DNA of 38,421 nucleotides, taken from the NCBI GenBank assembly GCA_022539475.1, contig VCMS01000283.1, forward strand, positions 1 through 38,421, read 5' to 3'. Below, piece after piece: positions 4,028-32,580 of this stretch; positions within the stretch are counted from its first letter, which is position 1; each line of letters begins with the position of its first letter. A program made the position numbers and the translations under genes. The notes under the pieces are model-generated. The model saw nothing but the letters and a program-made list of their open reading frames with translations. It had not been told where the DNA came from and did no database searches. The stretch is from Gracilaria domingensis (taxonomy: Eukaryota; Rhodophyta; Florideophyceae; Gracilariales; Gracilariaceae).

Positions 4028-4039
4028 ACTGTAGCGAGA

Positions 4040-9600: not shown

Positions 9601-9874
9601 CAGATGGGTCTGTGAAGCTGCTGGTTGAACCAACTCCATGTATGTTGATAACCAGGGCAGCATTGACCTTGCTCGTAATGGAGTGGTGAAGAGGCGAACC
9701 AAGCACATTGACATTCGGTTCCACTTCACTCGAGAAGCTCTGCAGGCCAAGTCGATTGTGCTGTTCTACTGCCCGACGGATTCCATGGTTGCCGATATGC
9801 TGAATAAGCCGCTTGCCCGAGTGAAGCACGAGAAGTTCCGCGAAGCCAGTGGTGTGATCCACATAGAAGTTTGA
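6700..9874 (+). pseudogene. Copia gag-pol fragment E1 (protease to RNase H), multiply frameshifted
   Basis: Homology to E2 starts at the protease (WIVDSGATAHMT, active-site DSG) and runs through integrase (HSDISGP, DNGGEY, NGLAERFNRT), reverse transcriptase and RNase H (SSAEAEY, TKHIDIRFHF) to the same stop at 9874. Gag and the 5' LTR are absent. Compared with E2 the sequence is almost identical but has more than fifteen one-base losses or gains, many in short runs (for example near 6868, 7079, 7384, 7422, 7673, 8116, 9050, 9370). These break the frame repeatedly. Where E2 has amber stops (24777 and 25428), E1 has GAG and CAG. It is followed by a polypurine tract and the LTR at 9895. Confidence 0.93.
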
Positions 9875-9885
9875 AGTCAGTGACA

Positions 9886-9894
9886 GAGGGGGGG
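9886..9894 (+). other. Polypurine tract of E1
   Basis: GAGGGGGGG immediately precedes the LTR start TGTTGGATG. The same junction is found at 26690-26698 in E2. Confidence 0.85.
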
Positions 9895-10682
9895 TGTTGG
9901 ATGTTGACCCTGTGCTGTCACTGAGAACCAAAAGTGCTGGGGAGCATGGGCTGTTTTGGAGGGTGCCATTGGAAAAGCGCATATGCGCCTCTGCGCAAAC
10001 TCAACGGGAAACGGGCTTGTGATTGGCTACTGCAAATGGTCATATGCATTGTGGTTGGTACAAGTGTTGTGGCGCTAATGGGTTGTTTCCGGGGTACACG
10101 TGTGTAGCTAGTACACTGGGCATACTGTACATGATGCACAGGGTACACACGTATGTGCGTGGTCATGTAGGACAGCTTGGTGTGACTTTGGCACTATGGT
10201 GAGGAGTAGATGCGCTGTCAAGAGGTTTACACTGTGGTATTGTTGGTGACGTAGGACTTGGAGTGAGTTTGTGGTGACGTGTTAGTTGGTGAGCTTGTAC
10301 GTAACTGTTATGGTGGCGTGTACGGATTACAGTGTGTTGGCACTATGTGAATCTGTGCATGGTCATGGTTATGTGTAGGCACGTAACTTGATGTGCACGG
10401 TTGTGCACTGTTGTGCGTTGTTGTGCTTTGTTGTTGTAAGCTGTCATGATAGTGTGGCAGTGTTACCATGTTATGTTAGAAGATGATTGGTAGTATTGAG
10501 TGTCTCTAGCTAGTGGTTTAGGTATTGCTTGGAGTTGGAGGCTTGCGATGGTTGCGCAAAGTAGTTCTATATAAGCGGTGACTCGAGCGCCTCCAAGTAA
10601 ATTCCGAGCCAGAGCTGGCGAACTTCCCTTCATGCCCCCCATCCTTTCTTCAACCTTCCCTTCTTAGCTACAACCTCTATCA
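9895..10682 (+). repeat. Shared LTR: 3' LTR of E1 and 5' LTR of E2
   Basis: 788 bp from TGTTGGATG to CTCTATCA. It follows the polypurine tract of E1 and precedes the leader and gag of E2, so one LTR serves two tandem elements. It is a few percent diverged from 26699-27484. TATATAAG lies at 10568-10575 and the palindrome GCGCATATGCGC near 9978. The base after it is not a primer site (see 10683). Confidence 0.93.
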
Positions 10683-11265: not shown

Positions 11266-11862
11266 ATGGACTCGTTTAGTGGGCTCAAGATCGAGAAGTT
11301 GGGTGAGGATAACTTCCATACTTGGAAGCAGAAGATTCAGTATGTACTTGCACTGAAAGACCTCAAGAACCATCTCACCACTTCTGCACCCACGGATGAA
11401 GAGGAACTGGTAAAGTGGCAAATCCGCGACGAAAGGGCTAGAGCTATCATTGGACTCACGCTTGCCGACGAGCACTTGGATCACATTCGAGACATCGAGA
11501 CTGCTGCTGACGCATGGAAGGCCATTTGCAATGTGTTTCAACGTAAGACTCTTCTTAACCGAATCAACGCCAGACGTGCTTTCTACTCTGTCAAAATGCG
11601 CGAGGACGAGAAGATGTTGCAATTCATCAACCGTGTTCGGCACTTGGCCTCCGACCTCAAGAGTATGGACGTCAACGTTGAAGGAGAGGACATTGCTATG
11701 GCTGCTCTATGTGGACTTCCGGATCGTTTTGAGCACCTCATTGTTGCAATTGACACCACGATCGGAGATCGCCAACTCACTATGGAGTTTGTGAAGAGCC
11801 GTCTATTGCAAGAAGAGCAACGTATGAGTGATCGTGCCAAGGAAGAGTCCGGTGTTGATGCT
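11266..11862 (+). CDS. Copia gag, N-terminal part (E2)
   Basis: ATG at 11266 opens MDSFSGLKIEKL and the typical copia gag (UBN2/retrotran_gag type) with NFHTWKQKIQYVL, FQRKTLLNRINARRAF, INRVRHLASDL and CGLPDRFEHLI. The frame reaches ESGVDA at 11862, where the DNA transposon begins. It is continued at 23241 by ALLGRQFRRKS and a CCHC knuckle. The apparent frame past 11862 is transposon sequence. Gag would bind the RNA genome and form the particle. Confidence 0.9.
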
Positions 11863-11995
11863 CGTCTGTCTCTTGCAGATGCTAGTTTTTGGCGAGGGTC
11901 GTCCAGAAATTGGCAAGGGTCGTCCAGTAAATTTTTTGAAAAAATATCGAGATCAATTATTTCAAAATCTGCAGATAATTGCTTGGGTCGTCCAG
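11863..11995 (+). repeat. Left terminus and subterminal repeats of copy A
   Basis: Terminal CGTCTGTCTCTTGCAG is followed by three direct copies of GGGTCGTCCAG at 11896, 11917 and 11985. Copy B has the same set starting at 30746. Subterminal arrays of this kind are usual transposase binding sites, but binding is inferred. Confidence 0.7.
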
Positions 11996-13322
11996 AATCG
12001 CTGTGCAGTAAATACTGGTGGGTTTTCCACTCGTGCTAGTTCTTTAGTCGAGGGCTACCTGAACTGTATTTCGCGAAGTCTAGGTTCAGTTTCCATTAAG
12101 GTGCACATTACACGATACCTTCTGCGGAATGATACCCTGCAACGCATGGAATACTAGTGCTAGTACAGATGATGCCCATTATGAAATCATACCGTTTTAT
12201 TCGTATCTATTCTTCTATCGACCGCTTTTGCTAACCACTACTTCGCTATATTACATGTACCATTTCCCCATGATGGATCGGGTGTAGGCGCAATCTGCGG
12301 CAGATGCCGCAGAGGGCACCTGCACCAAATTGCGGTAACGGTAGAACACATACGCACTCCGAGAGGATGAGGCGCGAAGCGCCTCATCCTCTCCGTTCGT
12401 CATGTAGGGAACCATGCCCAGATGCATGGTTCCCTACTTGAGGAACCTGCACCTGCAACTCGTGAGCTACGTACGCATCAAAAGTCATTTACCTGTATAC
12501 GCAAGCGGAAAGTATCCATAAGTTAGTCAATGATCAGTTGGATACATTTGAAATGCGATGGAACGTACCATTGATAAAGCAAAACAGAAACGTTGCGCTA
12601 GAAAAGTCGAGGGACCTAGTAACTCGCAAAAGTAACCCAAAGCCTTTTTCCTGCCGTTTACATGTCGCAGAGCGCGAAGAGACGTGGTGAGGATTGGTTA
12701 GTTTAGAACAAAGATACGTAGAAGGAAATGGAAGCACGTACGAAAAGACTGCACAGAAGGACTGCACGGAATACATCCGTGAGATACGGATGCTGTCCGC
12801 TTTATGGAGGCGTCCGACGAGGGCGGAGAAAGAGAATGAGGTACGCTTCATGTCCGCTTAATGGAATCCATTCTCAGCACGCTACTTCGTAATCCGTCGT
12901 ACTTTTTTCCGCCCTCGCACTTCGTAGCGAGTGCGAGGGCGGGAAAACGTACGACGGAGCGGAGTAGAGCGCGAGGATGGCACGGATCACGACGGTAACA
13001 AAAGATCGTACGTCGGACGGGCGGGGGCGGCGGCGGAGGGAAGAGATCTATTTTTCTGTGCGAGATTGGACAAGTGTACAGCGTACAACGTTGGGAAACC
13101 ACAGGTTTATAACCAGTGGTAGATAATACGAGAAGTACACCCTTGTGTTGAGGTCGACGTGTACCTACGTTCCTTTTTGAACGAAAGCACGTGAGTTAAA
13201 CTCAAAATATATTCTCCGTTCTGAGCAAGACGTCGATATTGACTGTCGCTCGACCTCCTTCTCCCTTCGGACGCCCTTCCCTTGCAGTCTTTGTCGTCGT
13301 TTCTCGTTCATTTCTTCTTCCT
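11996..13322 (+). other. Non-coding 5' region of the transposon with long hairpins
   Basis: No frame here looks coding. It holds strong hairpins: 12294-12313 (9-bp stem), 12361-12393 (GAGAGGATGAGGCGC arm, 15-bp stem, loop GAA), 12404-12437 (14-bp stem) and 12893-12958 (arms beginning TCCGTCGTAC with a GC-rich inner stem CCGCCCTCGCACT). All are conserved in copy B (31177-31319 and about 32150-32215). The transposase promoter should lie here; no clear TATA box was found. Confidence 0.65.
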
Positions 13323-16300
13323 ATGGTCTACTACTGTACACATAAGAAGCGTGGGTGCCCCTTCGTTACTCGCCGAGGAGTCTTATCTCTTCAACAGCAT
13401 GTCAACCATTGCCCGTTTCGTCTGAAAGCAGCGCTGGAAGACGACAATAGCCGGGCCATTCGGAGAAGCAAGCGTCTCAAGCTTTCCGCGCCCGCGCCCG
13501 CATCTTCCGAAACGGTCACTGCCCCTTGTCGCCTTCCCGAGCCTCCAGTGTCCGAGGACATCGTCGACCCCACTCCGTGCGCCCCTCCCATTCCGGACAC
13601 TTCGCATTGTGTTTCTCCTTCCCCGGGTCCCGCGTCATTAGAGCGAGAACACGGAAGCAGTTCCCGCCCAGTGCCTTCTGAGGAGGCCCTTGGTGATTTG
13701 CATATGGATTATCTCACGGTTTGTTTGGCTTCAGTAGCTTCCAACCTTGGTCATCGTGAGGCGGACGAGCTAATTGGGCTACTTCGGGACCCGCGATTCT
13801 CGCAAAAGCGATTCAACGAGACCATAACAAGTTCCAAGCGCTGTACAGAACTGAAGAACGCCATTTTCGAACGATACGCCTCAAAGGACGGTTTCAATCG
13901 CAGAACTGTCTCGCCAGAAGGATGTAAGTTCAGCGCCATCCTCTACACGAGAGACCCCGTTCAGACACTTGTGAAACAGCTCCAGTTGGCTAACAACGAA
14001 AACACATTCTTCCACCCTATACCTCAGACCCACTCCACGAAAATATCTCACCCCATGTCCGGCTCTCTCGCAAGAGACGCCACCTCAAAACTTAAGGAAA
14101 TGGTCATGGGCTCGTTGGATAGTAGAATAGTGTGGTACTCCCAAGAAATAAGTTACAGTGAATCTTTCGTAGGTCTTCTGCAGGTATACACCGATAAGTC
14201 TTCAACAACTCTAAAGCAAACATCGGTTACCGCCTATCCTCTTCACCTCATATTTCTCAACTTCTCCGACGAGCTTCGCCGTAAGTGTATCCGTGATGAC
14301 CTCACAGTAGTGGCATACTTCCCTACCACACTGATCGAGGTTTCCGCATCTGAAGCAGACGCAATGCCATTTGTTTCTAGCAAGTCTCTACGCGAGTCCA
14401 GGATGCAAATCCTTCAAGAATCTCTTCGTCAAGTCCTGGAGCCCATTCTAAATCTCACGCAGAAAGGTTTTCAGTTCATCGGCGAAGACAAACTAAGTCG
14501 AGTGTGCCATCCTCTGCTTGCAAGTTATTGTGCGGATATTCCTGAGGCTAAGGACATTCTGTCCATTCTTCATGGGACCAAAACGGAAAGCCCGTGTCAT
14601 AGATGCAAAGCCCCTCGCTCATCTTTATGCAGTCCTATTCCCACCTCATTCAACGGACGTTCTCAAAAGCACACGAAAAGCATCCGAAAGACATACACAG
14701 CTATCTTGCAATATGCACAAAAAGACGAGCCGGAAAGACGTCCACGTCGTGCGAGGGAGAGGAGATCTCAAGCGGATACTCTGATGCGTTCAAATTCCAT
14801 ATCTCTCATTCCTTCGTTCCTCGAAACTTCCGTAAGCCTTGGAATGATCCCGGGATTGTCTCCATACAGTCTGTTCTCATTCGAACCATTACACAACTTG
14901 CATCTCGGCATCTCAAAGTTGATAAAAACGGCCACAATCGCGAGACTGCAGTCAGACACCCTGTGCACCACAATAGGAACATCTGCATCGCGTTCACTTC
15001 GAACGATACGCACCCAACTCCTCAACCATGCAAACGCAATTCTAGCTGCCATAGAACGCGATTCTCCTGCCAAAGGTTTACATATCGATTTCTCCACGCA
15101 GGAGAAAGGCAAATCTTTGAATGGTATCTTCACGAAAGACGGTCTCCGTGGAATGCTGGAGGCCAAAAACTACAAAGCACTTGACATGGTCTTTCCCTTC
15201 ATAGGAGCATTCTTTGACATATGCTGTGGAGAACAGGACGTTGCCCCAATCACAACCGTTTTCTCTCAGTATTCGGACTTGCTCTCGACCTTATTCAGAT
15301 ACAATCCTGACCCGTATTGGACTGAAAGCTGTCTCCTGTGTCTTAGTTCGGAGATTGAAGCCTTCAAGCGTTCCGCAACAAAGACTCTGGCGGATTTTCA
15401 TCCCTCCAGACTGGGAACTCTGAAGTTTCATCTTCTCGATCATCTCGTGGACGATATTCGCCGTCTGGGAAGTATCAAGTACTACGACGCAGGCATATAC
15501 GAACATGCACACCTGCTATTTAAGAGACACTACAAAAAGACGTCCAGAAGAACAGCAACGGCTGTGGAGGAGACTATTCGCTCCATTGAGCACGGACATG
15601 TTAGAAAGCAATGGAATGGCAATACTCCTTACCAGCGTAATCCAGGTTTACCAGGAACTTCCACACAGCTTCCTCGGTTTGCAATGAGAGGGCGTTCTTT
15701 TACTTTACGAGCTCTTCAACATTGTGTTTCAAGTATGTCCAGTTCAAAAACATGGACTGCTGTTAGAGAGATGTTCTCAAGTACGGACACAAGGTCGATT
15801 CTTGACCAGATTGGTGAACAGGCCCTTCCTCCTTTCCTCAGTCTCGTGAAAGAAACACTGGATGAGCACTCTATTACATACTTCCCAGAAAAGACAAGGA
15901 TAACTCTGGTGAATTCGGCCCTCGTGAAAGGCGGTTTCGTTCCGACTCTTGAACACTTCGATTCGTCTTCTAAGGCACTTAAGCTGGGACGACCCAAATA
16001 CCCCATCATCCAACGTGTCTTCGCTTCTCCAGCATTTGGTCCCAGTAGAAAGCCAAAGTTTTCCACTGTATTGGTAAGCGGAGAAGATTCAGAGACTTGG
16101 GTTGCCCAGGTAGTCGCTCTGATGTCGGCCACGTCGCGATTCGGAGCTATTGCAAAGGTCGCGTATTGTGCCAAAAGTCGCGGATCAAGTGGGTGTGAAG
16201 CGCTAGTTTTCTCTAGTTTGATATGTGTGCACGGCGTGTGCAGCGAAATCACTGCCAGAAGAGCCGGAAGGAGTGCTTTCGAAGGTCTCCGGAGGGTGCC

Positions 16301-16349
16301 AAAATGTGGCCAGAACGTGCCCGCGGGCGGAGGGGGTCGGTCGTGTTAG
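13323..16349 (+). CDS. DDE transposase, KDZ/Plavaka-like, C-terminus lost (copy A)
   Basis: ATG at 13323. Residues 4-34 form a C2HC-type zinc finger (YCTHKKRGCPF...HVNHCPF). A low-complexity basic/proline linker follows. The catalytic core has VYTDKSSTT with D291, a CHRCK knuckle (C425, C428), FEPLHNLHLGISKL (E521, H524), KFHLLDHLVDDIRRLGS (from 701) and YEHAHLLFKRHYKKTSRR (E727). This motif order is that of KDZ/Plavaka transposases of the CMC/CACTA group. The second motif is usually DxxH; here it is ExxH in both copies. Homology to copy B ends at 16123. The last ~75 codons are unrelated sequence running into the foldback element, so about 125 C-terminal residues are missing. Confidence 0.8.
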   Translation: MVYYCTHKKRGCPFVTRRGVLSLQQHVNHCPFRLKAALEDDNSRAIRRSKRLKLSAPAPASSETVTAPCRLPEPPVSEDIVDPTPCAPPIPDTSHCVSPSPGPASLEREHGSSSRPVPSEEALGDLHMDYLTVCLASVASNLGHREADELIGLLRDPRFSQKRFNETITSSKRCTELKNAIFERYASKDGFNRRTVSPEGCKFSAILYTRDPVQTLVKQLQLANNENTFFHPIPQTHSTKISHPMSGSLARDATSKLKEMVMGSLDSRIVWYSQEISYSESFVGLLQVYTDKSSTTLKQTSVTAYPLHLIFLNFSDELRRKCIRDDLTVVAYFPTTLIEVSASEADAMPFVSSKSLRESRMQILQESLRQVLEPILNLTQKGFQFIGEDKLSRVCHPLLASYCADIPEAKDILSILHGTKTESPCHRCKAPRSSLCSPIPTSFNGRSQKHTKSIRKTYTAILQYAQKDEPERRPRRARERRSQADTLMRSNSISLIPSFLETSVSLGMIPGLSPYSLFSFEPLHNLHLGISKLIKTATIARLQSDTLCTTIGTSASRSLRTIRTQLLNHANAILAAIERDSPAKGLHIDFSTQEKGKSLNGIFTKDGLRGMLEAKNYKALDMVFPFIGAFFDICCGEQDVAPITTVFSQYSDLLSTLFRYNPDPYWTESCLLCLSSEIEAFKRSATKTLADFHPSRLGTLKFHLLDHLVDDIRRLGSIKYYDAGIYEHAHLLFKRHYKKTSRRTATAVEETIRSIEHGHVRKQWNGNTPYQRNPGLPGTSTQLPRFAMRGRSFTLRALQHCVSSMSSSKTWTAVREMFSSTDTRSILDQIGEQALPPFLSLVKETLDEHSITYFPEKTRITLVNSALVKGGFVPTLEHFDSSSKALKLGRPKYPIIQRVFASPAFGPSRKPKFSTVLVSGEDSETWVAQVVALMSATSRFGAIAKVAYCAKSRGSSGCEALVFSSLICVHGVCSEITARRAGRSAFEGLRRVPKCGQNVPAGGGGRSC

Positions 16350-16835
16350 GGTAGCTACCCTACCACGACCGGACCCCCCCGCCCGCGGGCACGTTTTGGG
16401 CGATGTTTTGAAAAATGTGCGATATTATGCCCGCGGGTGGAGGGGGGTCGGTCGTGTTAGGGTAGCTACCCTAACACGACCGGACCCCCCGCCGCGGCAC
16501 TGGACGATTTTTTGAAAAATGTGCGATTTTATGCCCGCGGGCACGTTTTGGACGATTTTTTGAAAAATGTGCGATTTTATGCCCGCGGGCGCGGGGGGTC
16601 GGTCGTGTTAGGGTAGCTACCCTAACACGACCGGACCCCTCCGCCCGCGGGCACGTTTTGGACGATTTTTTGAAAAATGTGCGATTTTATGCCCGCGGGC
16701 GGGGGGGTCCGGTCGTGTTAGGGTAGGTACCCTAACACGACCGACCCCTCCCCGCTCGCGGGCACGTTTTGGCCACATTTCGGCGCCTTCCCGGGACCTC
16801 CCAAAACACGCCGCCCCGCAGTGATTTCGCTACAC
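16236..16835. mobile_element. Foldback/MITE-like element with four long palindromes
   Basis: Outer inverted repeats: AGCGAAATCACTG at 16242-16254 and CAGTGATTTCGCT at 16819-16831, followed inward by related sequence including CCAAAATGTGGCC and its inverse. The inside has four 32-bp palindromes (16339, 16450, 16601, 16711), three of them perfect or off by one base, centred on GTAGCTAC and containing GTTAGGG/CCCTAAC. They are separated by repeats of GGACGATTTTTTGAAAAATG and GCCCGCGGGC. No coding capacity. No clear target duplication seen. It lies inside copy A and was probably inserted after it. Confidence 0.75.
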
Positions 16836-17191
16836 CCGGCCGCCGGTACGTTGGCGCCGCTGTCCACGTGTATTCGCGGGAGTAGGCTGTACATGGAAGT
16901 AAATGAGTGTTCTCTTGACTACTATGCAAGGCATTTGAAGAGCATGATTAGAGAGCGCGACCATTGCTCGCGTGAGTCATCATTGCGCGAACTCCACGAC
17001 TCTAAAGCGTACAATCAGCGTGCGAGCGGCCACGGACAGGACACGGACGAGACTGGCAGTGCGCTGGGAGGAGCTGCCGAAAGCGGGGGTGCCCAGCGTA
17101 AGTCGCCGTTTAAAAGGCTCGCATCCGTTCTTGTATCGTCCAGAGCGAACGAATTGTTGATATACACCTTTCACTGCAATAGCTGTTCAAC
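16836..17191 (+). other. Non-coding segment upstream of the 17192 gene
   Basis: An open frame of 124 codons from 16821 overlaps the foldback end and has no recognisable features. A TATA-like TTTAAAAG lies at 17109-17116, about 80 bases before the ATG at 17192. Confidence 0.35.
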
Positions 17192-18310
17192 ATGAAGCCA
17201 ACTCGTGTTCGAAAGCGTACGCAAAGCGTGACTCCTCGCACTCGGCGGAGCACTCGATTATTGCAAGGTGGAATGCGGGTTTCTCTGCAGATGGATATTG
17301 AGAATGAAGGAAAGGTGATAGTGGGGTAAGCGTTTTTGCATGGAATTGGAAGTGTTCTACGCCGCGAGTTGCTCGGGAAGCAATTGGACCCAGGTCTTGT
17401 GATGGTTCATAATACTCTCATCATTCGAAGCGGTCAGACGTTCTACCCTTACCGGGCGGAGGGCCTGGATCTTCCACAATATATCCAGGATCTCCGGACG
17501 GCCGCTCCTTGGGATGGGAAAATGATGGAACCGGTGGCAGCCAGCATTCCGGCGTCCAAGCGAGGAACGGTGAGCGCTATGAGTGAGGTGATGACGCCGA
17601 CAAGCCGCACGGAGCCAATTCGAAGTTCATCAACACCGAGAGGTAGCCCATCAGTAGCACCTCCGCGGGCCAGTCCATCGTCTGTTTCGAAGCGGACTAA
17701 GGAGACGAGATCATCTCCAGCTACGAAGCGGACAGGTCAAACAAAGTCTACCTCCGTTACGAAGCCCACTGCGTCGAAAAGGGCTTCTCCTGCGATGAAT
17801 CAAACCGTCGACACAAGGGGATCTTCTGCGTCGAAACAGACGGTTCAGCAGGGGACGGCTGTGCAAGAGGAGGAAGATGAGATCATAAAAGGTCCTCTTT
17901 CAGACGCGGATGCGCAATCCGCACAAGGAGCTGGTCCATCTGTACCCCAAACTGCACCAGAAACTGCGGAGCAGCAGGACGATGACGTTGTGCTTCTGTC
18001 CGCAAGAATGGCACGTTCAAGTGTTTCTGGCGAGCGGTCTGGAACACAAGGGACACCTACTCGGAGCAAGACGTACAGACGAATTCGTCAGAAGGTACCA
18101 AAGGTGAACCTCAATTCTAATTTCGTGTACAACAAACTGTGGCAGTGGAGAGAAGAAATGGATTCTGCTATTGGAGACCTGTTGCAGAAGATGGATGCGT
18201 TTGTTATCTATCCCGGCGATAAAAGTTGCGAAATTGTGGATAACTTCCGGTTTTCACTTCGACAGTCCATTGTAAGTGAAGTTAGGGAACAGGTCATTTC
18301 GATAAAGTAA
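17192..18310 (+). CDS. Basic low-complexity protein of unknown function, with in-frame TAA at 17327
   Basis: I do not recognise this gene. ATG 17192 opens a very basic start (MKPTRVRKRTQS...RTRRSTRLLQ). The frame meets TAA at 17327-17329 inside GGGGTAAGCG, then stays open to 18310. If translation starts after the stop, the first ATG is 17402 (302 residues). The middle part has repeated Ser/Thr/Lys-rich units (SSVSKRTKET, SSPATKRTGQT, SKRASPAMNQT, SSASKQTVQ), then an acidic patch (EEEDEI) and a C-terminal conserved-looking domain (NSNFVYNKLWQWREEMDSA, KSCEIVDNFRFSLRQSI). The stop lies in a GTAAG donor-like site. In-phase removal is possible with acceptors at 17352 (27 bases) or 17430 (105 bases). 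Either a short intron or a broken gene is possible. The protein is perhaps nuclear. Confidence 0.5.
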
Positions 18311-18369
18311 TTTTTATGTTTAACTATCTCTAAAAGGTTTACAACACCGAAAAATCATGTGTTCTAACC

Positions 18370-19272
18370 TCAAAGCTGGGGGAATGGGGAGGGAGATAAC
18401 TTTTCCTTAACAACGTTGACGTAGTTTGTATGAAAAGGAGCGGGGTAACCGCCTACAATGTTTCTTTCTTGGCGGGAAAAGTCGTAGAAGTACGCGTTCC
18501 TAAACTGAAAGTCGGAGAAAGAAGTAGGGAAGCCAACGAGAGTTTTCCCATATGCAAGAAGTCGCCCAACGGTCTCTTCCAGGTTGAAAGTAGTACCTGT
18601 CTTAAGCGAAACTATCTTCAACAGCTCTTTCATTATTGTGAGCACAACCGTACTGCACTCCGTAGCGACTACGTCCATAGGAATGAAACCTCTTGAGGCC
18701 CCGACGATGTTGAACGCTGATAGCCACACGAGCTTCTCATAATAGCTTACGAGAAATGTGTCTTCGTCGACAACCCCGCAAGTGAGACCCATAGACCTAA
18801 ACCTGTCTGCAACGTTGCAGGCCCACTTTCCTGTTGCGACAGTGAGACCATCCGGACTTTGAGGAGTGACACCATCCTGCGGAGCTGCGTTTCTTGAGGG
18901 GACACCAACGTATAGGACAACTTTTGAACATGTGTCCACACCGAGCTTCGAAACCAATGGTATGATGTCTCCATTCTGGAAGAAAACGAGATTCTCTCTG
19001 AGCGAATAAGGGCAAGCCTGAATTACGGTCTCCAGGGTGTTCGTTCTTCCACAAACTAGTATCGGTACATCAGAAAGATGAGAGGTAGCAGCCATGCTGC
19101 AGAATTCGTGTGCGGAAATGACCGTATCTTCTTCGTTCGCCAGCATGGTACCTATACGCCCCCTTCCAACAATAACGGCCCGAGTCCTTCGGGCGGGAGA
19201 TGAGGCCTGAGGGACGTCAGAGTATCTGGGACTCGGAGGCGGAGTGGGAGGCATGTCGCACTGGGAGTTCAT
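18370..19272 (-). CDS. Ketopantoate-reductase-like NAD(P)-binding protein (plant/algal family)
   Basis: The first ATG in the frame is at 19272, giving 300 residues and an intact frame. An N-terminal Pro/Ser-rich stretch (1-30) is followed by a Rossmann start, AVIVGRGRIGTML (GRGRIG at 36-41), LVFFQNGDIIPL, GLTVATGKWACNVADRF and, in the C-terminal half, YYEKLVWLSAFNIVGA and FRNAYFYDFS. This is the layout of a conserved plant and algal family related to ketopantoate reductase (ApbA/PanE C-terminal domain). Its members are reported in plastids; the reaction is not established to my knowledge. No transit peptide is obvious. The gene lies inside transposon copy A, convergent with the 17192 gene and divergent from the epimerase exon. 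It could be captured cargo. Confidence 0.7.
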   Translation of the reverse strand: MNSQCDMPPTPPPSPRYSDVPQASSPARRTRAVIVGRGRIGTMLANEEDTVISAHEFCSMAATSHLSDVPILVCGRTNTLETVIQACPYSLRENLVFFQNGDIIPLVSKLGVDTCSKVVLYVGVPSRNAAPQDGVTPQSPDGLTVATGKWACNVADRFRSMGLTCGVVDEDTFLVSYYEKLVWLSAFNIVGASRGFIPMDVVATECSTVVLTIMKELLKIVSLKTGTTFNLEETVGRLLAYGKTLVGFPTSFSDFQFRNAYFYDFSRQERNIVGGYPAPFHTNYVNVVKEKLSPSPFPQL

Positions 19273-19672
19273 TGCAAGTGTTCGAATGTTTTTGTGTGAC
19301 GATAGAAATGGAAGATGGGGCGGAGAACTGCTTGGGTAAAGAGTGATACTTAAGTAAAAACGGTTAGGAAGCGCAGAACGGGAACATGGTTCACTTTGTG
19401 AAAGTGAGCGAAATGTATGATATGTGATTGTACTGAATGAATGATAGGGCTTGTATGAGACGACAAGCCACAAAGTGTGATGATGTTTTATGAAAGGTAG
19501 GTGGAAGAGTAGAAAGTGTGCAATGAATGAAACTGATTTCGAACCTGAGTTGTAAAGTAGTTGTAAAGTACGAGTTACGGGGAGCTTGATTACAGGATGA
19601 AAGGAGCCATTTTGGCTTCATAAATGACGTGAACGGGTTCTATAGCTTCACTTGGATTGCCATAATTAAAAG
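19273..19672. other. Region between the reductase-like gene and the epimerase exon
   Basis: About 400 bases, AT-richer than the surroundings. It probably contains the minus-strand promoter and 5' UTR of the reductase-like gene. The frame upstream of its ATG stays open for 67 codons without another ATG. No N-terminal epimerase sequence is present. Confidence 0.4.
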
Positions 19673-19990
19673 GATGGAGTTGGATTGCGTCCGAATACGT
19701 CTTTAAAGGTCGTAGAAGCACTTATGAAGGAAGGAGTTGTAGACATGTTATTGTTGATGACGGTGGAGCCAGGGTTTGGAGGACAGGCGTTTATGGAGGG
19801 TGTTCTTGACAAGGTGCGACATGCAAGGGAGTTGTACCCAAGAATAAGGATACAGGTGGATGGGGGTATTGGACTGAGTACTGTGAAAGGAGTAGTGAAG
19901 GCCGGTGCAAACATTTCAGTTGCAGGATCTGCCATCTTTGGCTCGAGTAACCCAGCTCATGTCATAGCTGGTTTTCGAAAGGTTGGTTAG
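19673..19990 (+). pseudogene. Ribulose-phosphate 3-epimerase, orphan 3' part
   Basis: 105 codons match the C-terminal half of ribulose-phosphate 3-epimerase (interconverts ribulose-5-P and xylulose-5-P in the pentose phosphate and Calvin cycles). GVGLRPNTS, LLMTVEPGFGGQAFM, IQVDGGIG (with the second catalytic Asp) and VAGSAIFGS are all present and in frame to the TAG at 19988. Full-length enzymes have about 220-230 residues. The N-terminal half, with the first catalytic Asp and the metal-binding histidines, is absent. The frame begins just after AAAAG at 19672, with a stop codon directly upstream. It therefore looks like a terminal exon behind a splice acceptor whose 5' exons are missing. Confidence 0.8.
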
Positions 19991-20060
19991 AGATAGTAGC
20001 ATAAATTTATTGTTTATTACATTGTTACCTTTACGTGTTATCACGACTATATTCTCCGTC

Positions 20061-20388
20061 TCCATTGGAGATGTATTTCTCTTGTATCACAACCGGGAAA
20101 GGATGTGAGAGAACATAAATATATCTCCAGTGGACGCTGAGAGGGAGGATGAACTACTCTACGTGCTACCATTGTTACCCATCCGGTGTCGAGTGGTGAC
20201 ATATTCTTTTTTTGTCACAACCCACAAAGGATGTGACGGAAGAAGAACATGCCCCCAGTCGAGACAGAGGGTGAGCAACTCTAAGTACAATCACTAGTCC
20301 CTAGCTTGCCTCCACTGGCAATATCTTCCTGGTTTGCTATAACCATCGAGTGGGGTTATGGTGGAAGAGAAGAATATCTCCGGTCGAG
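20061..20388. repeat. Three tandem units, each an imperfect ~35-bp-stem hairpin
   Basis: Units at 20061-20134, 20188-20264 and 20309-20388 (spacing 127 and 121). Each has a left arm of the type TCCA-TGG-ATATTTCT...CACAACC and a right arm that is its inverse (GGATGTGA...ATATCTCCAGTGGA). Arms differ between units but stay paired within each: TCACAACC/GGATGTGA in units 1 and 2, CTATAACC/GGTTATGG in unit 3. No coding frame. The surrounding sequence (19991-20060, 20389-20629) shows nothing else. Confidence 0.75.
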
Positions 20389-20629
20389 GCGAGGTGGTTG
20401 GGGATTATGTGAGCGCAAAAGAGGAGACAGAGATGTGGCTTTCAAATAGTGGAAGGTGCGAAGGTGTACAGTAGATGTTTTGGCGGGAAATGGATGAGAG
20501 AAACAGTGGCAATCATGGTGCTGGATATAGCCCGTGTGGTTGGACAGTGGGGGTGGACAGCACAGTTTAGCTCGATTGCACTGTATCGCAGCGGCAACTT
20601 CGATCCAACTACTACTTGTTCTTCTGAAG

Positions 20630-21559
20630 ATGTCGAACGGATACGTGAAGGATGAGGAGCTGTTGGCGGTGTTGGAGGTGGAGGAGGTACCGCAGACACA
20701 GTCACCAAAGCGGGAAGAGGACGTGATTACGGCGGCTGGTCGGATGTCGCAGAAGAAGGAAGTGGCTGAGGAAGGAAAGAAGTGTGAGGCGAGGAGAGGG
20801 GATGGTGATGAGGTGGAGAAGGGGGTAGAATTGGAGGTGGAGGGGGTCGCAATGGAGAGAAGGGGTGCGGTGCATCTGAGTCAGTTAGAGGTTGGAGACC
20901 AGATAGAGAGTGGGGGCGGAGAGGGTGACAGGGAGATGCGGTTTGTGGGGGAGATGAAGGCGAGGGTGGGGATGTTGGGGTTGGTGATGAAGGAGCAACT
21001 GGACGATGGAATTGTGGAGATTGTAACGGAAATGGGCGGTGTGGTGCTGAGTGGGGGTGGTAGTGGTGTTTCGGTTGAGGCGATTTCGAGCTTGCGGAAT
21101 TCGTTGTCGGTATTGGGAGTGGAGATGAGAAATCATGTGTATGGGATAGTGGAGTGTGCGGGAAGGGAGGTTGGAGAGTTGCGGGAGGAGAATAGGGTTC
21201 TGAACGAGAGGTTGGACGTGCTGGAGAAGGAGGTGAAGGAGCTGTGCAAGAGGCAAAGATTGGTGGAAGAGGAGACGGTGAAAGGAGGTGTGGAGGGAAA
21301 GACGGAGAAGGGAAGTGTGGGAAGGGTGGCGGTGCAGAAGGGGTCTCCTGTGACACCGAAGACAAAGGGTGGTGGGGTTGGGGATGGGAAGAGCCGTCTG
21401 AAGAAGAGGCGTAAGGAGATGAAGAAGGTGGTGGAGGAGGTGCCGCGGGAGGGAGTGGGAGCTCCGGTGGTGACTGGGTTTAGGAGTGCGGCGGAGGTAG
21501 CGCGGACTGCGAAGGGGATTCTGAGGGGACAGGAGGAGAGAAGGATGGGAGGGATTTGA
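20630..21559 (+). CDS. Coiled-coil protein of unknown function (first copy)
   Basis: I do not recognise this family. ATG at 20630 gives 309 residues, Glu/Gly/Val-rich with a purine-rich coding strand. Predicted features: an acidic N-terminus, a long heptad-like region around ISSLRNSLSVLGVEMRNHVYG and ELREENRVLNERLDVLEKEVKEL, then a basic stretch (KSRLKKRRKEMKK) and a conserved-looking tail (VVTGFRSAAEVARTAKGIL). The layout recalls ORF1/gag-like or nucleic-acid-binding accessory proteins, but no zinc knuckle is seen. From codon 52 onward it is repeated at 22067-22774. It lies at the right end of copy A. The long proline/serine-rich frames on the other strand are shadows. Confidence 0.55.
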   Translation: MSNGYVKDEELLAVLEVEEVPQTQSPKREEDVITAAGRMSQKKEVAEEGKKCEARRGDGDEVEKGVELEVEGVAMERRGAVHLSQLEVGDQIESGGGEGDREMRFVGEMKARVGMLGLVMKEQLDDGIVEIVTEMGGVVLSGGGSGVSVEAISSLRNSLSVLGVEMRNHVYGIVECAGREVGELREENRVLNERLDVLEKEVKELCKRQRLVEEETVKGGVEGKTEKGSVGRVAVQKGSPVTPKTKGGGVGDGKSRLKKRRKEMKKVVEEVPREGVGAPVVTGFRSAAEVARTAKGILRGQEERRMGGI

Positions 21560-21996
21560 AGCCGTTTTGGGGCGAGGCGGGTATACGAGAAGGGGGAGAG
21601 TTGTGCACCTGACTTCTACAAAATGAACGCGTGATGGGCGAGAAATGCGTAAATAGCGGGGGTGGTGTGGACTGGGAAGAAGTGATGGGATGATTGAGGT
21701 GGGATGAGTTGCGATTGGCATTGCAACATGGGAGAAAATGGAAACGCAAACTAGCACGAGTGCAGTTTTGAGAGAGGGTCGCGGAAAAGAGTGAATGGGG
21801 TGGTGCGGCGAAGTAGAACCTCTACAAAAACTAGGGGACCCAAGCACTAAACTGCGCGAAATGGAATTTAATATTCCAAAATTTCTTAATTTTTTGAGTG
21901 CCAGCCTCTGCTACCCCCTCGCGCGCCCCAAATAGCCCCAAAACTAGCTTAGTTTCCAAAGCGAACAGACTATATTCCACTTTGCAGAACACAGAC
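20782..21996 (+). repeat. Tandem duplication, unit 1 (right end of transposon)
   Basis: Begins GTGTGAGGCGAGGAG and ends TTTGCAGAACACAGAC, directly followed by unit 2 (21997-23241), which is about 97% alike by eye. The unit spans most of the coiled-coil gene, a ~440-bp non-coding tail (containing GGAATTTAATATTCC) and the transposon right terminus. Confidence 0.88.
21560..21996. other. Non-coding tail of unit 1
   Basis: No gene seen. It contains an AT-rich inverted repeat (GGAATTTAATATTCC near 21860) and ends in the terminal motif. The matching tail of unit 2 is 22775-23241, with an extra ~30 bases near 22845. Confidence 0.6.
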
Positions 21997-22066
21997 GTGT
22001 GAGGCGAGGAGAGGGGATGGTGATGAGGTGGAGAAGGGTGTAGAATTGGAGGTGGAGGGGGTCACA

Positions 22067-22774
22067 ATGGAAAGAAGGGGTGCGGTGCATCTGAGTCAGT
22101 TAGAGGTTGGAGACCAGATAGAGAGTAGGGGCGGAGAGGGTGACAGGGAGATGCGGTTTGTGGGGGAGATGAAGGCGAGAGTGGGGATGTTGGGGTTGGT
22201 GATGAAGGAGCAACTGGACGATGGAATTGTGGAGATTGTAACGGAAATGGGCGGTGTGGTGCTGCGTGGGGGTGGTAGTGGTGTTTCGGTTGAGGCGATT
22301 TCGAGCCTGCGGAATTCGTTGTCGGTATTGGGAGTGGAGATGAGAAATCATGTGTATGGGATAGTGGAGTGTGCGGGAAGGGAGGTTGGAGAGTTGCGGG
22401 AGGAGAATAGGGTTCTGAACGAGAGGTTGGACGTGCTGGAGAAGGAGGTGAAGGAGCTGGGCAAGAGGCAAAGATTGGTGGAAGAGGAGAGGGTGAAAGG
22501 AGGTGTGGAGGGAAAGACGGAGAAGGGAAGTGTGGGAAGGGTGGCGGTGCAGAAGGGGTCTCCTGTGACACCGAAGACAAAGGGTGGTGGGGTTGGGGAT
22601 GGGAAGAGCCGTCTGAAGAATAGGCGTAAGGAGATGAAGAAGGTGGTGGAGGAGGTGCCGCGGGAGGGAGTCGGAGCTCCGGTGGTGACTGGGTTTAGGA
22701 GTGCGGCGGAGGTAGCGCGGACTGCGAAGGGGATTCTGAGGGGACAGGAGGAGAGAAGGATGGGAGGGATGTGA
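22067..22774 (+). pseudogene. Coiled-coil protein, second copy lacking the N-terminus
   Basis: The first in-frame ATG is 22067, giving 235 residues that match the C-terminal part of the 20630 protein with about eight substitutions (for example C to G and K to N in the basic region). The first ~75 codons of the gene are not in the duplicated unit and there is no promoter copy, so it is probably not expressed as such. The frame has stayed open. Confidence 0.6.
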
Positions 22775-23218
22775 AGCCGTTTTGGGCGAGGCGTGTATAC
22801 GAGAAGGGGGAGAGTTGTCCACCTGACTTCTGCAAAATGACGTTTGCGGAGACGGATAGAGAGGATGCGAACGCGTGATGGGCGAGGAATGGGTAAATAG
22901 CGGGGGTGGTGTGGACTGGGAAGAACTGATTGGATGATTGAGGTGGGATGAGTTGCGATTGGCATTGCAACATGGGAGAAAATGGAAAGGCAAACTAGCA
23001 CCAGTGCAGTTTTGAGAGAGGGTCGCGGAAAAGAGTGAATGAGGTGGTGCGGCGAAGTAGAACCTCTACAAAAACTAGGGAACCCAAGAACTAAACTGCG
23101 CGAAATGGAATTTAATATTCCAAAATTTCTTAATTTTTTGAGTGCCAGTCTCTGCTACACCCTCGCGCGCCCCAAATAGCCCCAAATCTAGCTTAGTTTC
23201 CAAAGCGAACAGACTATA

Positions 23219-23241
23219 TTCCACTTTGCAGAACACAGACG
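23219..23241 (-). repeat. Right terminus of transposon copy A
   Basis: Read inward from the end: CGTCTGTGTTCTGCAA. Compared with the left end CGTCTGTCTCTTGCAG, 12 of 16 positions agree, including the first seven. A second identical right terminus lies at 21980-21997. Confidence 0.65.
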
Positions 23242-26200
23242 CTGCACTCTTGGGACGCCAGTTTCGTAGGAAGTCATTGAAGTCGGTTGTGTGTTACTAT
23301 TGTGGCATAAAGGGTCATATCCAGAATAACTGTTTCAAAAAGCAACGTGATGGGGCTAACAAGGATCAGATCGATGCTGCTCACCCAAGTGTACATACCG
23401 CCCTCAACGATGAGCAAGGTACGGGCGGCAGCGATTCTGACTTTGTATGCCTCATTGCGAATGGTGCCGACAAGGCCACTAACAGTGACTGGATTGTTGA
23501 CTCTGGAGCTACTGCGCACATGACTTATGATGACTCAATGTTCCAAACGTACGAGACAAAGGTGTCGTCGGGTGTGAGTATCGGCAATGATTCCAAGTTG
23601 CAGTCTGTTGGTCACGGAAGTGTGGAGCTTGATCTGACTTTGGAAGGGTCCAAACGTAAGTGCAAGCTGAAGCAAGTGGTGCACGTGCCTAACTTGCGGT
23701 ACCACCTGTTGTCAGTGTCGCAGATTTGTGATTTGAACTGCACGGTAGTGTTTGACAAAGAAAAGGTATGTGTGTACAAGGGGTCAAAAGTGGTTGCCGT
23801 TGGGCGCCGCGTCAAAGACCTGTACTACCTTTGCACTGCTGCAGATCAGTTCACGGATACGGACAGTGCCCTTGTGTCAGACTTGTCTCTATGGCATGCT
23901 CGAATGGCTCATGTGAATGTGGAAGGCATCAAGCAGATGGCTCGAAATGGTGTTGTGTCAGGTCTGAATGTGGATGTGGCTCAGAAGCTGGATGTGTGCG
24001 GCTCTTGTGCAGTGGCAAGCAACCGTGCTCGGACTCCCAAGCAAGGGGGGGAACGAGCTGAACACGTACTGGACCTGGTACACTCTGATATATCGGGTCC
24101 AGTGAACGTGAAGTCCTTGGGAGGCTCGCACTACTTTGTCACATTCATCGATGACCACAGCCGCTACTGCTTTCTGTACATGCTCAAGACGAAGGATGAG
24201 GTGTTCCGGATTTTCATCAAGTGGCTCAGGTTTGTGGAGAACCAGATGGGCAGGAAAGTGTTAACCATCACCGCTCGCAAGAGTGTGTTGCGTGCATTAC
24301 GCACTGACAATGGTGGTGAGTACTTGTCCAATCGGTTCTCCGAAAAGCTTGAGCAGTACGGTATTGAGCATCAGCGAACTGTGCCTTACAATCCACAGCA
24401 GAACGGGCTAGCCGAGAGGTTCAACCGCACACTCATGGACTTGGTCAGGTCAATGTTGCATCAAAAGAATGTGCCAAAAAGCTTTTGGGCTGAGGCTCTG
24501 AATGTCTCTGTGTATGTGCGCAACAGAGTGACCTGCAAAGCGCTTCCGAGTGACGTGACGCCGTTTGAGCTGTGGCATGGACAGAAGCCTGATCTGAGCA
24601 ATCTGCGTGTGTTTGGTAGCCGTTGCTGGTACAAGGTGGTTGATCACAAGTTGAAGAAGCTGGAAGAGCGTGCAGTGGAGGCCATCTTCATTGGGTACAC
24701 TTCAGGCTCCCACGGGTACAAGTTGTGGGACAGCCAGAAGAAGAAGGTGATTGTGTCACGAGATGTGAGGTTTGACTAGTGCTCTGCAACTGAAAGTGAC
24801 GAGCACTCTGAAGACGAGGACTATGCGGATATCGACTTGGTTGACAAGTCGGGATCTGCTGAAGCCTCAACCTCCGACACATCCGCCGATCATTCTGAAG
24901 ATGACCCTTCTGCACCAGCTTCTCACGAGAGTACCACGAATGCCAGTACGGATGAACACACCACACCAGTCCCACAAGATGAGCCGGAAGTGACAGAGAT
25001 GCAGCCCATTCGTAGATTCACGCGTCAGAGAAAGACGCCATCCTCGTGGTGGCGTGGTGCCAGTGCTTTCCTTACAGCCAGTGATGATACTCACTCGTCG
25101 TACGGTGACGCAGTGTCACGTCCTGATTCCGAAGCTTGGAAGAAGGCGATGAAGAGTGAGTACGAGTCATTGATGGAGCATGACACATGGGATCTAGTGC
25201 CAAAGCCAGCAGACAGCAACGTGATTTCGTCCAAGTGGGTGTATGTGCAGAAGTATGAGGCATCGTCATCTGGTGAACCGACCGTGCGTTACAAGGCTCG
25301 TGTGGTTGCAAGAGGCTTCCTGCAGATCGAGGGTGTGGACTTCTCAGAGACTTATGCACCTGTGGTGAAGTTCACATCCATCAGAATGATCCTGTCAGTC
25401 ACTGCCGTACGAGACTTCCACTTGCACTAGATGGACGTGAAGACTGCGTTTCTGAACGGTGACCTTGACGAGACAATGTACATGGAGCAGCCAATGGGAT
25501 TCACACAGCAGGGAAAGGAGGACTTGGTGTGCCGACTGAAGAAAGCGATCTATGTGCTTAGACAAGCACCAAGGCAGTGGCACGCCAAGATATACGCCTT
25601 CCGTGTTGGTGAAATGCACCTCAAGCCGAATAACGCAGACGAGTGTGTCTACACCGGGATCATACTGGGTTTCTTGGTTATCATTGCTCTGTATGTTGAC
25701 GACTTGCTGATTGCGAGTCCGAGCATGAAAACCGTGGAACGTGTGAAGGCAGAGCTGTCAAGTCGTTTCCGCATGAAGGACCTCAAAGAAGCTCGCATGG
25801 TTCTTGGATTTGAAATCCATCGAGACAGAACCAAGCGAGAGCTGTCCTTGACTCAGTCAGCGTACACCAACAAGGTCGTGGAGCGATTTGGCATGCAGCT
25901 GTCGAAACCAGTTGACACTCCTATGGAGTGCGGTGTGGACTTGTCTGTTGATGAGGAAGTGCTCACGCATGTACCGTATCGCCAGGCGATTGGCTGCCTC
26001 ATGTATCTGTCCGTGGGAACTCGTCCGGATATCTCATATGCTGTCGCTAAGCTGGCCAAGTATGTTGAGAAGCCGGGCAACACTCACTGGAAGGCGGTCA
26101 AGCGTGTTCTTCGCTACCTCAATGGCACTACCATGTTCGGGTTGACGTATGGCTCCAGCACTGATTTGCAACTGCACGGGTATGTGGACTCCGACTGGGC

Positions 26201-26678
26201 CGGTGATGTTGCCAACCGCAAGTCCACCAGCGGATACTTGTTCATGATTTGCGGTGGTGCTGTGTCGTGGTCTTCTCGTCAACAGGAGGTAGTGGCTCTG
26301 TCCAGTGCGGAGGCTGAGTACGTGAGCTTGTGCTCTAGCACGAAGGAGGCAATCTGGCTTAGGCGACATTGGAACGGCATTGGCAGTGCAATTGGAATCG
26401 ATGCAGATGGGTCTGTGAAGCTGCTGGTTGAACCAACTCTCATGTATGTTGATAACCAGGGCAGCATTGACCTTGCTCGTAATGGAGTGGTGAAGAGGCG
26501 AACCAAGCACATTGACATTCGGTTCCACTTCACTCGAGAAGCTCTGCAGGCCAAGTCGATTGTGCTGTTCTACTGCCCGACGGATTCCATGGTTGCCGAT
26601 ATGCTGAATAAGCCGCTTGCCCGAGTGAAGCACGAGAAGTTCCGCGAAGCCAGTGGTGTGATCCACATAGAAGTTTGA
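23241..26678 (+). pseudogene. Copia gag C-terminus and pol of E2, with two amber stops
   Basis: One continuous frame continues gag after the insertion. CCHC knuckle CYYCGIKGHIQNNC, protease WIVDSGATAH, integrase zinc region (WHARMAH...CGSC) and catalytic D, D, E (HSDISGP, TDNGGEY, NGLAERFNRT), reverse transcriptase with YVDDLLIASPS, and RNase H (DSDWAGD, SSAEAEY, DNQGSID, TKHIDIRFHF). TAG at 24777-24779 (after integrase) and TAG at 25428-25430 (in reverse transcriptase) interrupt it. E1 has GAG and CAG there. A single gag-pol frame is normal for Ty1/copia-type elements. Confidence 0.92.
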
Positions 26679-26689
26679 AGTCAGTGACA

Positions 26690-26698
26690 GAGGGGGGG
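26690..26698 (+). other. Polypurine tract of E2
   Basis: GAGGGGGGG abuts the LTR start TGTTGGATG, as at 9886-9894. Confidence 0.85.
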
Positions 26699-30745: not shown

Positions 30746-31176
30746 CGTCTGTCTCTCGCAGATGCTAGTTTTTGGCGAGGGTCGTCCAGAAATTGGCAAG
30801 GGTCGTCCAGTAAATTTTTTGAAAAAATATCGAGATCAATTATTTCAAAATTTGCAGATAATTGCTTGGGTCGTCCAGAATCGCTGTGCAGTAAATACTG
30901 GTGGGTTTTCCACTCGTGCTAGTTCTTTAGTCGAGGGCTACCTGAACTGTATTTCGCGAAGTCTAGGTTCAGTTTCCATTAGGGTGCACATTACACGATA
31001 CCTTCTGCGGAATGATACCCTGCAACGCATGGAATACTAGTGCTAGTACAGATGATGCCCATTATGAAATCATACCGTTTTATTCGTATCTATTCTTCTA
31101 TCGACCGCTTTTGCTAACCACTACTTCGCTATATTACATGTACCATATCCCCATGATGGAGCGGGTGTAGGCGCAA

Positions 31177-31319
31177 TCTGCGGCAGATGCCGCAGACTGC
31201 ACGTCCACCATCGGCTGTATCGGTAGAACAAATACGCACTCCGAGAGGATGAGGCGCGAAGCGCCTCATCCTCTCCGTTCCTCATGTAGGGAACCATGCC
31301 CAGATGCATGGTTCCCTAC
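31177..31319 (+). repeat. Hairpin cluster in copy B
   Basis: Stems at 31177-31196, 31243-31275 (GAGAGGATGAGGCGC arm) and 31286-31319 are the same as in copy A at 12294-12437. The sequence between the first two is more diverged than the stems. Confidence 0.75.
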
Positions 31320-31373
31320 TTGAGGAACCTGCACCTGCAACTCGTGAGCTACGTCCGCATCAAAAGTCATTTA

Positions 31374-31888
31374 CCTGTATGCGCAAGCAGAAAGTATCCA
31401 TAAGCTAGTCAATGATCCGTTGGATACAGTTGAAATGCGATAGAACGTACCATTGGTAAGAGCAAAACAGAAACGTTGCGCTAGAAAAGTCGAGGGACCT
31501 AGTAACTCGCAAACGGAAGAAGAAGCAGGAAAGGGATCGGTTAGATTACCAGCCCACCATCATCGTAAAGCGCGAAAAGGTGTTGAAGCGAGAACTCACA
31601 AGCAAGAAAATTAAGAATGCCCAAGCAGCAAACATACCGCAAGATGCGATAAACGAGAGAGCAGCCTATGTCCCAACCAAGTACCAGAATCGCCTATCCC
31701 GAACAGCCAGAGATCGATCTTGAGAGAGGAAATGAAATTGGTCGTTTTCCTGTATACGCAAGCAGAAAGTATCCATAAGTTAGTCAATGCTCCGTTGGAT
31801 ACAGTTGAAATGCGATAGAACGTACCATTGATAAGAGCAAAACAGAAACGTTGCGCTAGAAAAGTCGAGGGACCTAGTAACTCGCAAA
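31374..31888 (+). repeat. 140-bp direct repeat, 375 bp apart (31374-31513 and 31749-31888)
   Basis: CCTGTATRCGCAAGCAGAAA to AGTAACTCGCAAA occurs twice, and only once in copy A (about 12491-12629). The extra 375 bp account exactly for the different distance from left end to transposase ATG (1835 versus 1460). The spacer 31514-31748 has no equivalent in copy A and no gene. Confidence 0.85.
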
Positions 31889-32580
31889 AGTAACCCAAAG
31901 CCTTTTTCCTGCCGTTTACATGTCGCAGAGCGCGAAGAGACGTGGTGAGGATTGGTTAGTTTAGAACAAAGATACGTAGAAGGAAATGGAAGCACGTACG
32001 AAAAGACTGCACGGAAAGACTGCACGGAATACATCCGTGAGATACGGATGCTGTCCGCTTTATGGAGGCGTCCGACGAGGGCGGAGAAAGAGAATGAGGT
32101 ACGCTTCATGTCCGCTTAATGGAATCCATTCTCAGCACGCTACTTCGTAATCCGTCGTACTTTTTTCCGCCCTCGCACTTCGTAGCGAGTGCGAGGGCGG
32201 AAAAACCTACGACGGAGCGGAGTAGAACGCGAGGATGGCACGGATCACGACGGTAACAAAAGATCGGACGTCGGACGGGCGGGGGCGGCGGCGGAGGGAA
32301 GAGATTTATTTTTCTGTGCGAGATTGGACAAGTGTACAGCGTACAACGTTGGGAAACCAGAGGTTTATAACCAGTGGTAGATAATACGAGAAGTACACCC
32401 TTGTGTTGAGGTCGACGTGTACCTACGTTCCTTTTTGAACGAAAGCACGTGATTTAAACTCAAAATATATTCTCCGTTCTGAGCAACACGTCGATATTGA
32501 CTGTCGCTCGACCTCCTTCTCCCTTCGGACGACCTTCCCTTGCAGTCTTTGTCGTCGTTTCTCGTTCATTTCTTCTTCCC

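Follow-up and report, generated by a model that had tools for sequence, protein, structure and literature searches.

Gene-carrying DNA transposons are already known in plants and fungi, and the Starships, very large gene-carrying mobile DNA of fungi, use a tyrosine recombinase. Here we describe, from the red alga Gracilaria domingensis, a likewise large gene-carrying segment of 11.4 kb in which a Plavaka transposase domain is found instead. It lies in a stretch of 38,421 nucleotides (contig C283:1-38421, hereafter the window). Comparison with other copies in the genome makes it very probable (about 0.85) that this segment belongs to a Plavaka-lineage family of cut-and-paste transposons, descended from an element of about 22-23 kb. 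The original prediction, made from the letters of the window, had proposed a DNA transposon with gene cargo placed exactly between the two halves of a copia gag gene.

The closest described systems are the fungal Plavaka transposons (CMCT group). In the part available of a 2025 fungal study (PMC12730594), they are grouped with CACTA/EnSpm-like transposons and are not assigned to the Kyakuja-Dileera-Zisupton (KDZ) elements, with which they had earlier been named jointly. According to the same part, target duplications measure 2 bp in PlavakaA and 2-3 bp in PlavakaB, the criteria for the transposase are C(2)C and H(3-4)H motifs between the second D and the last E, and some Plavaka families carry an extra gene encoding a TET/JBP dioxygenase. 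KDZ elements, which also carry extra enzymes in fungi, make duplications of 7-8 bp and possess a transposase without similarity to that of Plavaka (PMC12730594, same part). The algal element resembles fungal Plavaka in its transposase domain, in 2-bp duplications as in PlavakaA and in the presence of extra genes. It differs in its red algal host, in its termini (CGTCTGT..ACAGACG), in carrying reductase, epimerase, HAD and methyltransferase-like sequence, and in its size, for which a composite estimate gives up to about 23 kb. The Pack-TYPE/Pack-CACTA and Tgm-Express elements of plants are, similarly, DNA transposons that amplify host-like gene sequences; however, Pack-TYPE elements are described as non-autonomous in the portions available of PMC8903248 and PMC1947982, whereas here many copies have a long frame for the transposase as well as intronless genes that are complete. 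A survey of literature by titles and the beginnings of abstracts returned no Plavaka or gene-carrying DNA transposon reported from a red alga.

The genome searched comprises 77.9 Mb in 680 contigs (designated by C numbers). Genome-wide counts refer to the best-scored places only and are thus lower bounds, with intactness biased upward. Eleven other copies of the element were fetched for comparison; six of these stretches begin to the right of the left end and three are cut off or stop before the right end. The insertion and its borders are arranged as follows.

11266..11862, plus strand: 5' half of the target copia gag (PF14223, E-value 3.4e-36), the last two bases of which (11861-11862) are the CT duplication.
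11863..23241, plus strand: entire inserted element of 11,379 bp, delimited by shared ends and duplications.
11863..11885, plus strand: left terminal repeat CGTCTGTCTCTTGCAGATGCTAG, identical at unrelated flanks in C26, C2, C231 and C179, with one change in C262.
11896..11995, plus strand: three subterminal direct repeats GGGTCGTCCAG (at 11896, 11917 and 11985).
21978..21997, plus strand: inner right end, corresponding to the terminus of other copies.
21998..23241, plus strand: second right-end unit, the outer end of which (23219-23241) is the terminal repeat adjoining the CT duplication.
23242..24779, plus strand: 3' half of gag, running onward into protease-like and integrase domains, with the CT duplication at 23242-23243.

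When the flanks are joined so as to retain the duplicated CT once, the gag frame runs uninterrupted from VDA (11862) into ALLG. A query of 600 bases made from these joined flanks was matched from 1 to 600, at 98-99%, in all 40 scored places (the best 40 of 177 candidates). These places are uninterrupted gags, so that both halves represent one target and one kind of gag. This search for empty sites bears out the predicted borders, and an origin of the two halves from different copia copies, which had been named as the finding that would speak against them, is at odds with a joined query matched throughout. The segment 11863-23241 is a single DNA transposon inserted in copia gag, and its predicted insertion as one unit together with the cargo is backed by the empty sites, by the shared ends with 2-bp duplications and by the recurrence of the cargo elsewhere. 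The richness of the region in near-identical repeats could suggest an assembly artefact, or two unrelated adjacent insertions in different copia copies, but the empty sites, the 2-bp duplications at five sites and the same internal order on other contigs make this highly improbable.

The left end lies inside five of the 11 fetched copies (C26, C2, C262, C179 and C231), where it starts at the equivalent of window position 11863, or of 11862 through one matching flank base. The right-end motif CACTTTGCAGAACACAGACG (window 21997) terminates eight of the 11. The subterminal repeat GGGTCGTCCAG has no counterpart in the 500 bases at the right-hand end of the element. Imperfect inverted repeats had been predicted and are indeed present, perfect over the first 7 bases (7/7, CGTCTGT/ACAGACG) and matching at 14 of 23 positions overall; random pairs from the window reached 14/23 with a frequency of 3.6e-4 and had a perfect 7-mer with a frequency of 9e-5. 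The letters GCT, which had been read as duplicated, do stand on both sides of the insert, but the right end of other copies stops at ...ACAGACG before unrelated flanks; the final G thus belongs to the element, the true duplication is CT (2 bp), and a 3-bp duplication of GCT is ruled out. The original prediction had advised a search of the genome for the ends, and the same ends are present in other fetched copies. In all five copies with both ends (that of the window and four more) the flanking dinucleotides are equal on the left and on the right (CT, CG, AA, AC and TT), an agreement expected by chance at about (1/16)^5 assuming equal bases, with the A-rich C2 site counting less.

The right end of the window copy is doubled. 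Its outer unit, 21998-23241, is 95% identical to 20783-21997 and up to 98% identical to other right ends of the genome; being closer to those than to the inner unit, it comes from another subfamily. It is quite conceivable, although we lean somewhat against it, that the unit which jumped measured about 10.1 kb and not 11.4 kb, and that the right end was doubled after insertion by local duplication or conversion. Within the flanks fetched, none of the eight other right ends is doubled, and the inner end is the usual one. The identities given above indicate that the outer unit is not a simple local copy, but conversion could still account for it.

The interior of the element, and a second copy found in the window, contain the following features.

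13239..16349, plus strand: open reading frame (ORF) with the Plavaka transposase, residues 233-486 matching PF18759; sequence of the family extends to about 16123.
16123..16124: internal junction at which about 6.7 kb of the inferred long form are missing.
16235..16838: G+C-rich palindrome array found by self-comparison, its length apparently varying among copies.
17192..18115, plus strand: N-terminal remnant of an ORF of about 1,300 amino acids, putatively ParB-like/dioxygenase-like, with a stop at 17327-17329, an open ORF from 17336 and 3.77 kb absent after 18115.
18119..18288, plus strand: remnants of a HAD-hydrolase-like region, with two more junctions at 18241-18243 and 18286-18288.
18370..19473 (core 18373-19269), minus strand: open ketopantoate-reductase-like ORF, assigned by homologues and predicted fold.
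19670..19987, plus strand: C-terminal remnant (106 amino acids) of a ribulose-phosphate 3-epimerase, lacking at 19666/19671 a piece of 459 bp that is present in L039, a stretch of C296.
20534..21559, plus strand: ORF of 341 amino acids, function not assigned, no Pfam match over cut-off.
30746..35379, plus strand: second copy of the element; left end and transposase region are shared with the first, and the sequence after 35379 differs.

The Plavaka domain was recognized with an E-value of 1.5e-18 and 67.5 bits (cut-off 26.3). At least 80 distinct transposase places occur in the genome, as collected from the best 40 of 1,471 candidates in a DNA search and the best 49 of 1,714 in a protein search. 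An open transposase frame of 1,100 amino acids is present in 33 of the 49 places among the protein matches listed, and the window type reaches 1,049 amino acids because its last part crosses the junction at 16123. One database relative was reported among 7,993 candidates scored, P0124 (553 amino acids, 46% identity), which also carries the Plavaka domain. CHRC and HLLDH, at residues 423 and 701 of a 932-residue translation, were located by pattern and are candidates for the C(2)C and H(3-4)H motifs. A KDZ/Plavaka-like transposase had been predicted, of which the Plavaka part holds (PF18759) and the KDZ part does not: duplications of 2 bp at five of five sites agree with Plavaka and not with the 7-8 bp of KDZ, and the two groups are kept apart in the part available of PMC12730594. 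The KDZ assignment is ruled out by these duplications together with the Plavaka match. A point against the affiliation is that the termini CGTCTGT..ACAGACG differ from both TGT..ACA (PlavakaA) and CATCA..TGATG (PlavakaB); since TGT and ACA sit four bases inside the termini, the element is placed in neither A nor B, but only among elements with a Plavaka transposase.

The cargo recurs throughout the genome. Nearly all of 16900-20700 is matched at 97-98% in 28 of 40 scored places (window included), the other 12 matching mainly 18286-20698, and seven of the 11 fetched copies track the window up to the inner right end, with two exceptions: the palindrome array, and a stretch near 12.63 kb measuring about 225 bp. 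At 12484-12631, the window copy is without these approximately 225 bp, including a 148-bp repeat, which are present in other fetched copies and in the second copy of the window. A one-off capture of genes at this site is ruled out by the copy number of the cargo; the search for other copies with the same or different cargo, suggested by the original prediction, yielded this recurring cargo and, in addition, longer relatives with extra genes. As the reductase and epimerase resemble normal metabolic genes, the cargo might be an ordinary host gene block with transposon ends inserted on either side, but the block recurs together with the ends in other copies (97-98%) and is absent from the 40 scored empty gag sites, so that this explanation is extremely unlikely.

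The reductase-like gene is intact, as had been predicted, with an open ORF on the minus strand. Homologues found in databases come almost exclusively from plants, most of them with 31-41% identity. The structural model (predicted local distance difference test, pLDDT, 85) found 3i83 as its best Foldseek match (E 4.7e-7, template-modelling score, TM, 0.60), and as modelled the protein has the ketopantoate reductase (PanE/ApbA) fold; against this reading, profile searches with the ORF gave no Pfam or NCBIfam match. The frame was found in at least 131 places (528 candidates), with 122 of the 131 listed lacking a stop, a share which overstates intactness since the places were chosen by score.

The epimerase piece, which had been taken for an exon, is present (PF00834, 6.4e-26) and matched in at least 150 genomic places (452 candidates), but it looks like the deletion remnant of a gene that is complete and intronless in longer relatives. 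L039 holds such a gene, of 261 amino acids and divergent to the reductase, which matched PF00834 at 1.6e-61, NF004076 at 207.3 (cut-off 165) and TIGR01163 at 211.4, just below 212.6. In or outside elements, the epimerase profile was matched from position 2 to at least 192 at 41 genomic places, 26 of them without a stop and one of these 26 (C245) frame-shifted; this count leaves out C320 and C187, which are probably host genes. Six fetched complete copies besides C245 share 91-98% identity with one another, and the C320 gene is clearly different. The nearest named proteins of two element genes are G. domingensis FGB62_89g16 (97% over 77% of the query) and FGB62_128g110 (91%).

Longer relatives of the window copy were found in L037 (a stretch of C5), L038 and L039 (both from C296), which are collinear with the window save for discrete gaps. 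L037 exceeds the window copy at three places, by 3.77 kb between 18115 and 18119, by about 0.7 kb at 18243 and by about 0.64 kb at 18288, with a few shared bases at the junctions; at 264-968 it encodes a HAD-like product (PF08282, 1e-12). The part missing from the window is, in L038:395-4300, one open frame of at least 1,302 amino acids. A VDGLHR stretch in this ORF, read by eye and unconfirmed by any profile, is presumed to be ParB-like, and an HTD...VTHAG...R pattern, also unconfirmed, was likened by eye to 2-oxoglutarate dioxygenases. The ORF had no Pfam or NCBIfam match, and its dioxygenase-like part no PDB match; the predicted model of that part (pLDDT 32) is too poor for fold comparison. 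The same part was found in at least 94 genomic places (689 candidates; 67 of the 94 listed without a stop), and it has environmental relatives in P0122 (35%) and P0123 (26%), as measured against L037. Viral origin was considered and rejected: viral contigs gave 127 pattern matches for the reductase and 65 for the dioxygenase-like part, none of them confirmed as a relative. Another longer copy, represented by the stretch L022, contains at 1-1659 (minus strand) a 553-amino-acid frame with a DPPF motif beside the palindrome region; methyltransferase matches were under cut-off (PF10237, 16.1 vs 23.2; PF01555, 14.4 vs 26.7), and no PDB or NCBIfam match was obtained. The dioxygenase and methyltransferase readings are weak.

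Whether these parts belong to one long element was examined through spacings. A first collation covered distances up to 16 kb from the transposase and left out the near full-length epimerases of C176 and C518, both with stops; a second one extended to 26 kb and included reductase or epimerase positions only on contigs also holding a listed transposase. A listed reductase lies within 9 kb of 28 of the 94 listed dioxygenase places, with a spacing of 4,491-4,522 bp in 24 of the 28, and a listed near full-length epimerase accompanies nine of the 94, at 5,875-5,897 bp in eight. The distance between transposase and dioxygenase is 12,623 and 12,625 bp in two of five cases (C108 and C591), with both halves on one strand. 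From these spacings the reductase would be expected about 17.1 kb, and the epimerase remnant about 18.4 kb, from the transposase. Distances near expectation were found for the reductase in C315 (17,027 bp) and C218 (17,160 bp), and for the epimerase remnant in C91 (18,420 bp); further classes of transposase-cargo distance are window-like (4.9-5.3 kb) or measure 8.0-8.3 kb. Two probes of 151 bases, taken from C108 between the transposase and the dioxygenase, fall in the order expected for one long element, the first matching the second copy of the window at 38010-38161 (86.6%) and the second matching L022:460-610 (98.7%). That second copy probably represents the left portion of a long form that continues past the end of the window; its tail (to 38421) holds an ORF of 479 amino acids at 36031-37470 (minus strand), to which no function was assigned.

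Several observations weigh against a single long ancestor. The three other transposase-dioxygenase spacings are 5,943, 8,305 and 13,643 bp, and the reductase stands off expectation in C269 (17,651 bp) and C182 (18,150 bp). No listed reductase or epimerase occurs within 26 kb of 52 of the 80 listed transposase places, which limits of the listing may or may not explain. The identity of the first probe is modest, and a third C108 probe matched over 44-49 of 151 bases only, in the palindrome region and mainly on the opposite strand. The long form suggested by the summed pieces, of about 22.7 kb, is a composite of several copies and not the length of one copy. The window type could instead be a recombinant of two families, joined at 16123, with the transposase in its left half and the cargo in its right half: the second copy of the window has the left half only, a copy in C262 has only the part right of 16123, and the 52 transposase places lacking listed cargo would fit. 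Yet the two halves share a strand in C108 and in C591, at nearly the same distance, the cargo of C315, C218 and C91 lies where expected, and two C108 probes match flanking parts in order. Spacings and probes thus make one long element with deletions likelier than a chimera, which we regard as improbable. By its appearance, the window copy was derived by internal deletion from a 22-23 kb master.

The ancestral element of about 22-23 kb would, from spacings and junctions, have contained the transposase, the methyltransferase-like ORF, the ParB-like/dioxygenase-like ORF, a HAD piece, the reductase, a complete epimerase and the 341-amino-acid ORF. The 11.4 kb segment was presumably moved by a Plavaka DDE transposase, which came either in trans from copies having the 1,100-amino-acid frame or from the window copy itself, in the form of its shortened protein. 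The window subfamily would have lost sequence in five or more internal deletions before it spread; the deletions may have arisen through repair at short matches, with the deleted forms spreading partly in trans. The palindrome array at 16235-16838 adjoins the junction at 16123 and may favour breakage and deletion.

Selection on the element genes was assessed with 12-16 rows per segment, from copies covering 97% of the segment and ignoring transition bias. Among transposase changes, 48 of 170 single-copy (p 0.11) and 12 of 22 shared ones (p 0.002) were synonymous, with a shared ratio of nonsynonymous to synonymous polymorphism (pN/pS) of 0.26. Three non-coding controls read as coding gave pN/pS values of 0.81, 1.01 and 1.17 for single-copy and 0.43, 0.83 and 0.42 for shared changes; as two of the three are also low in the latter, the transposase value is a weak hint only. 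Synonymous changes amounted, single-copy and shared respectively, to 12/32 (p 0.07) and 4/15 (p 0.52) in the reductase, 6/16 (p 0.18) and 0/1 in the epimerase remnant, 23/74 (p 0.08) and 4/9 in the 341-amino-acid ORF, and 7/49 (p 0.98) and 2/5 in 17336-18115. In the six complete epimerase copies, without the frame-shifted C245, 28 of 85 changes were synonymous (p 0.03), and 13 of 39 (p 0.10) when C9 was also removed. Selection on the reductase and epimerase was not demonstrated by these tests, and the cautious reading is accordingly that both most likely ride as captured passengers. The DNA-modification-like genes, if real, might aid the element against host silencing. A bolder proposal is that the element of about 23 kb carries its own DNA-modification kit, with a methyltransferase and a ParB-like/2-oxoglutarate-dioxygenase fusion editing bases in its own copies, besides working carbon-metabolism genes, thus paralleling the fungal TET/JBP transposons by way of different enzymes; we consider this rather unlikely.

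The surroundings of the insertion contain further repeats. Copia stretches at 6698-10682 and 23485-27484 are 98% identical, in the same orientation and about 17 kb apart, with inverted pieces at 4039-4501 and 28174-28961, and a 993-bp direct repeat (1639-2631 and 5165-6156) shows 99.9% identity. At 30024-30692 (minus strand) a frame that by eye resembles another copia-type integrase fragment stops just short of where the second element copy begins.

With metabolic genes amplified, along with transposon ends, to dozens or more than 100 copies, gene-carrying transposition would be extended to the Plavaka lineage and to red algae. The close copies allow the stepwise loss of genes from a large element to be traced, and also allow testing of whether non-fungal transposons carry tools that change DNA marks. 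For genome annotation they are a warning, as a gene model for a reductase or an epimerase in a genome of this kind can belong to a transposon.

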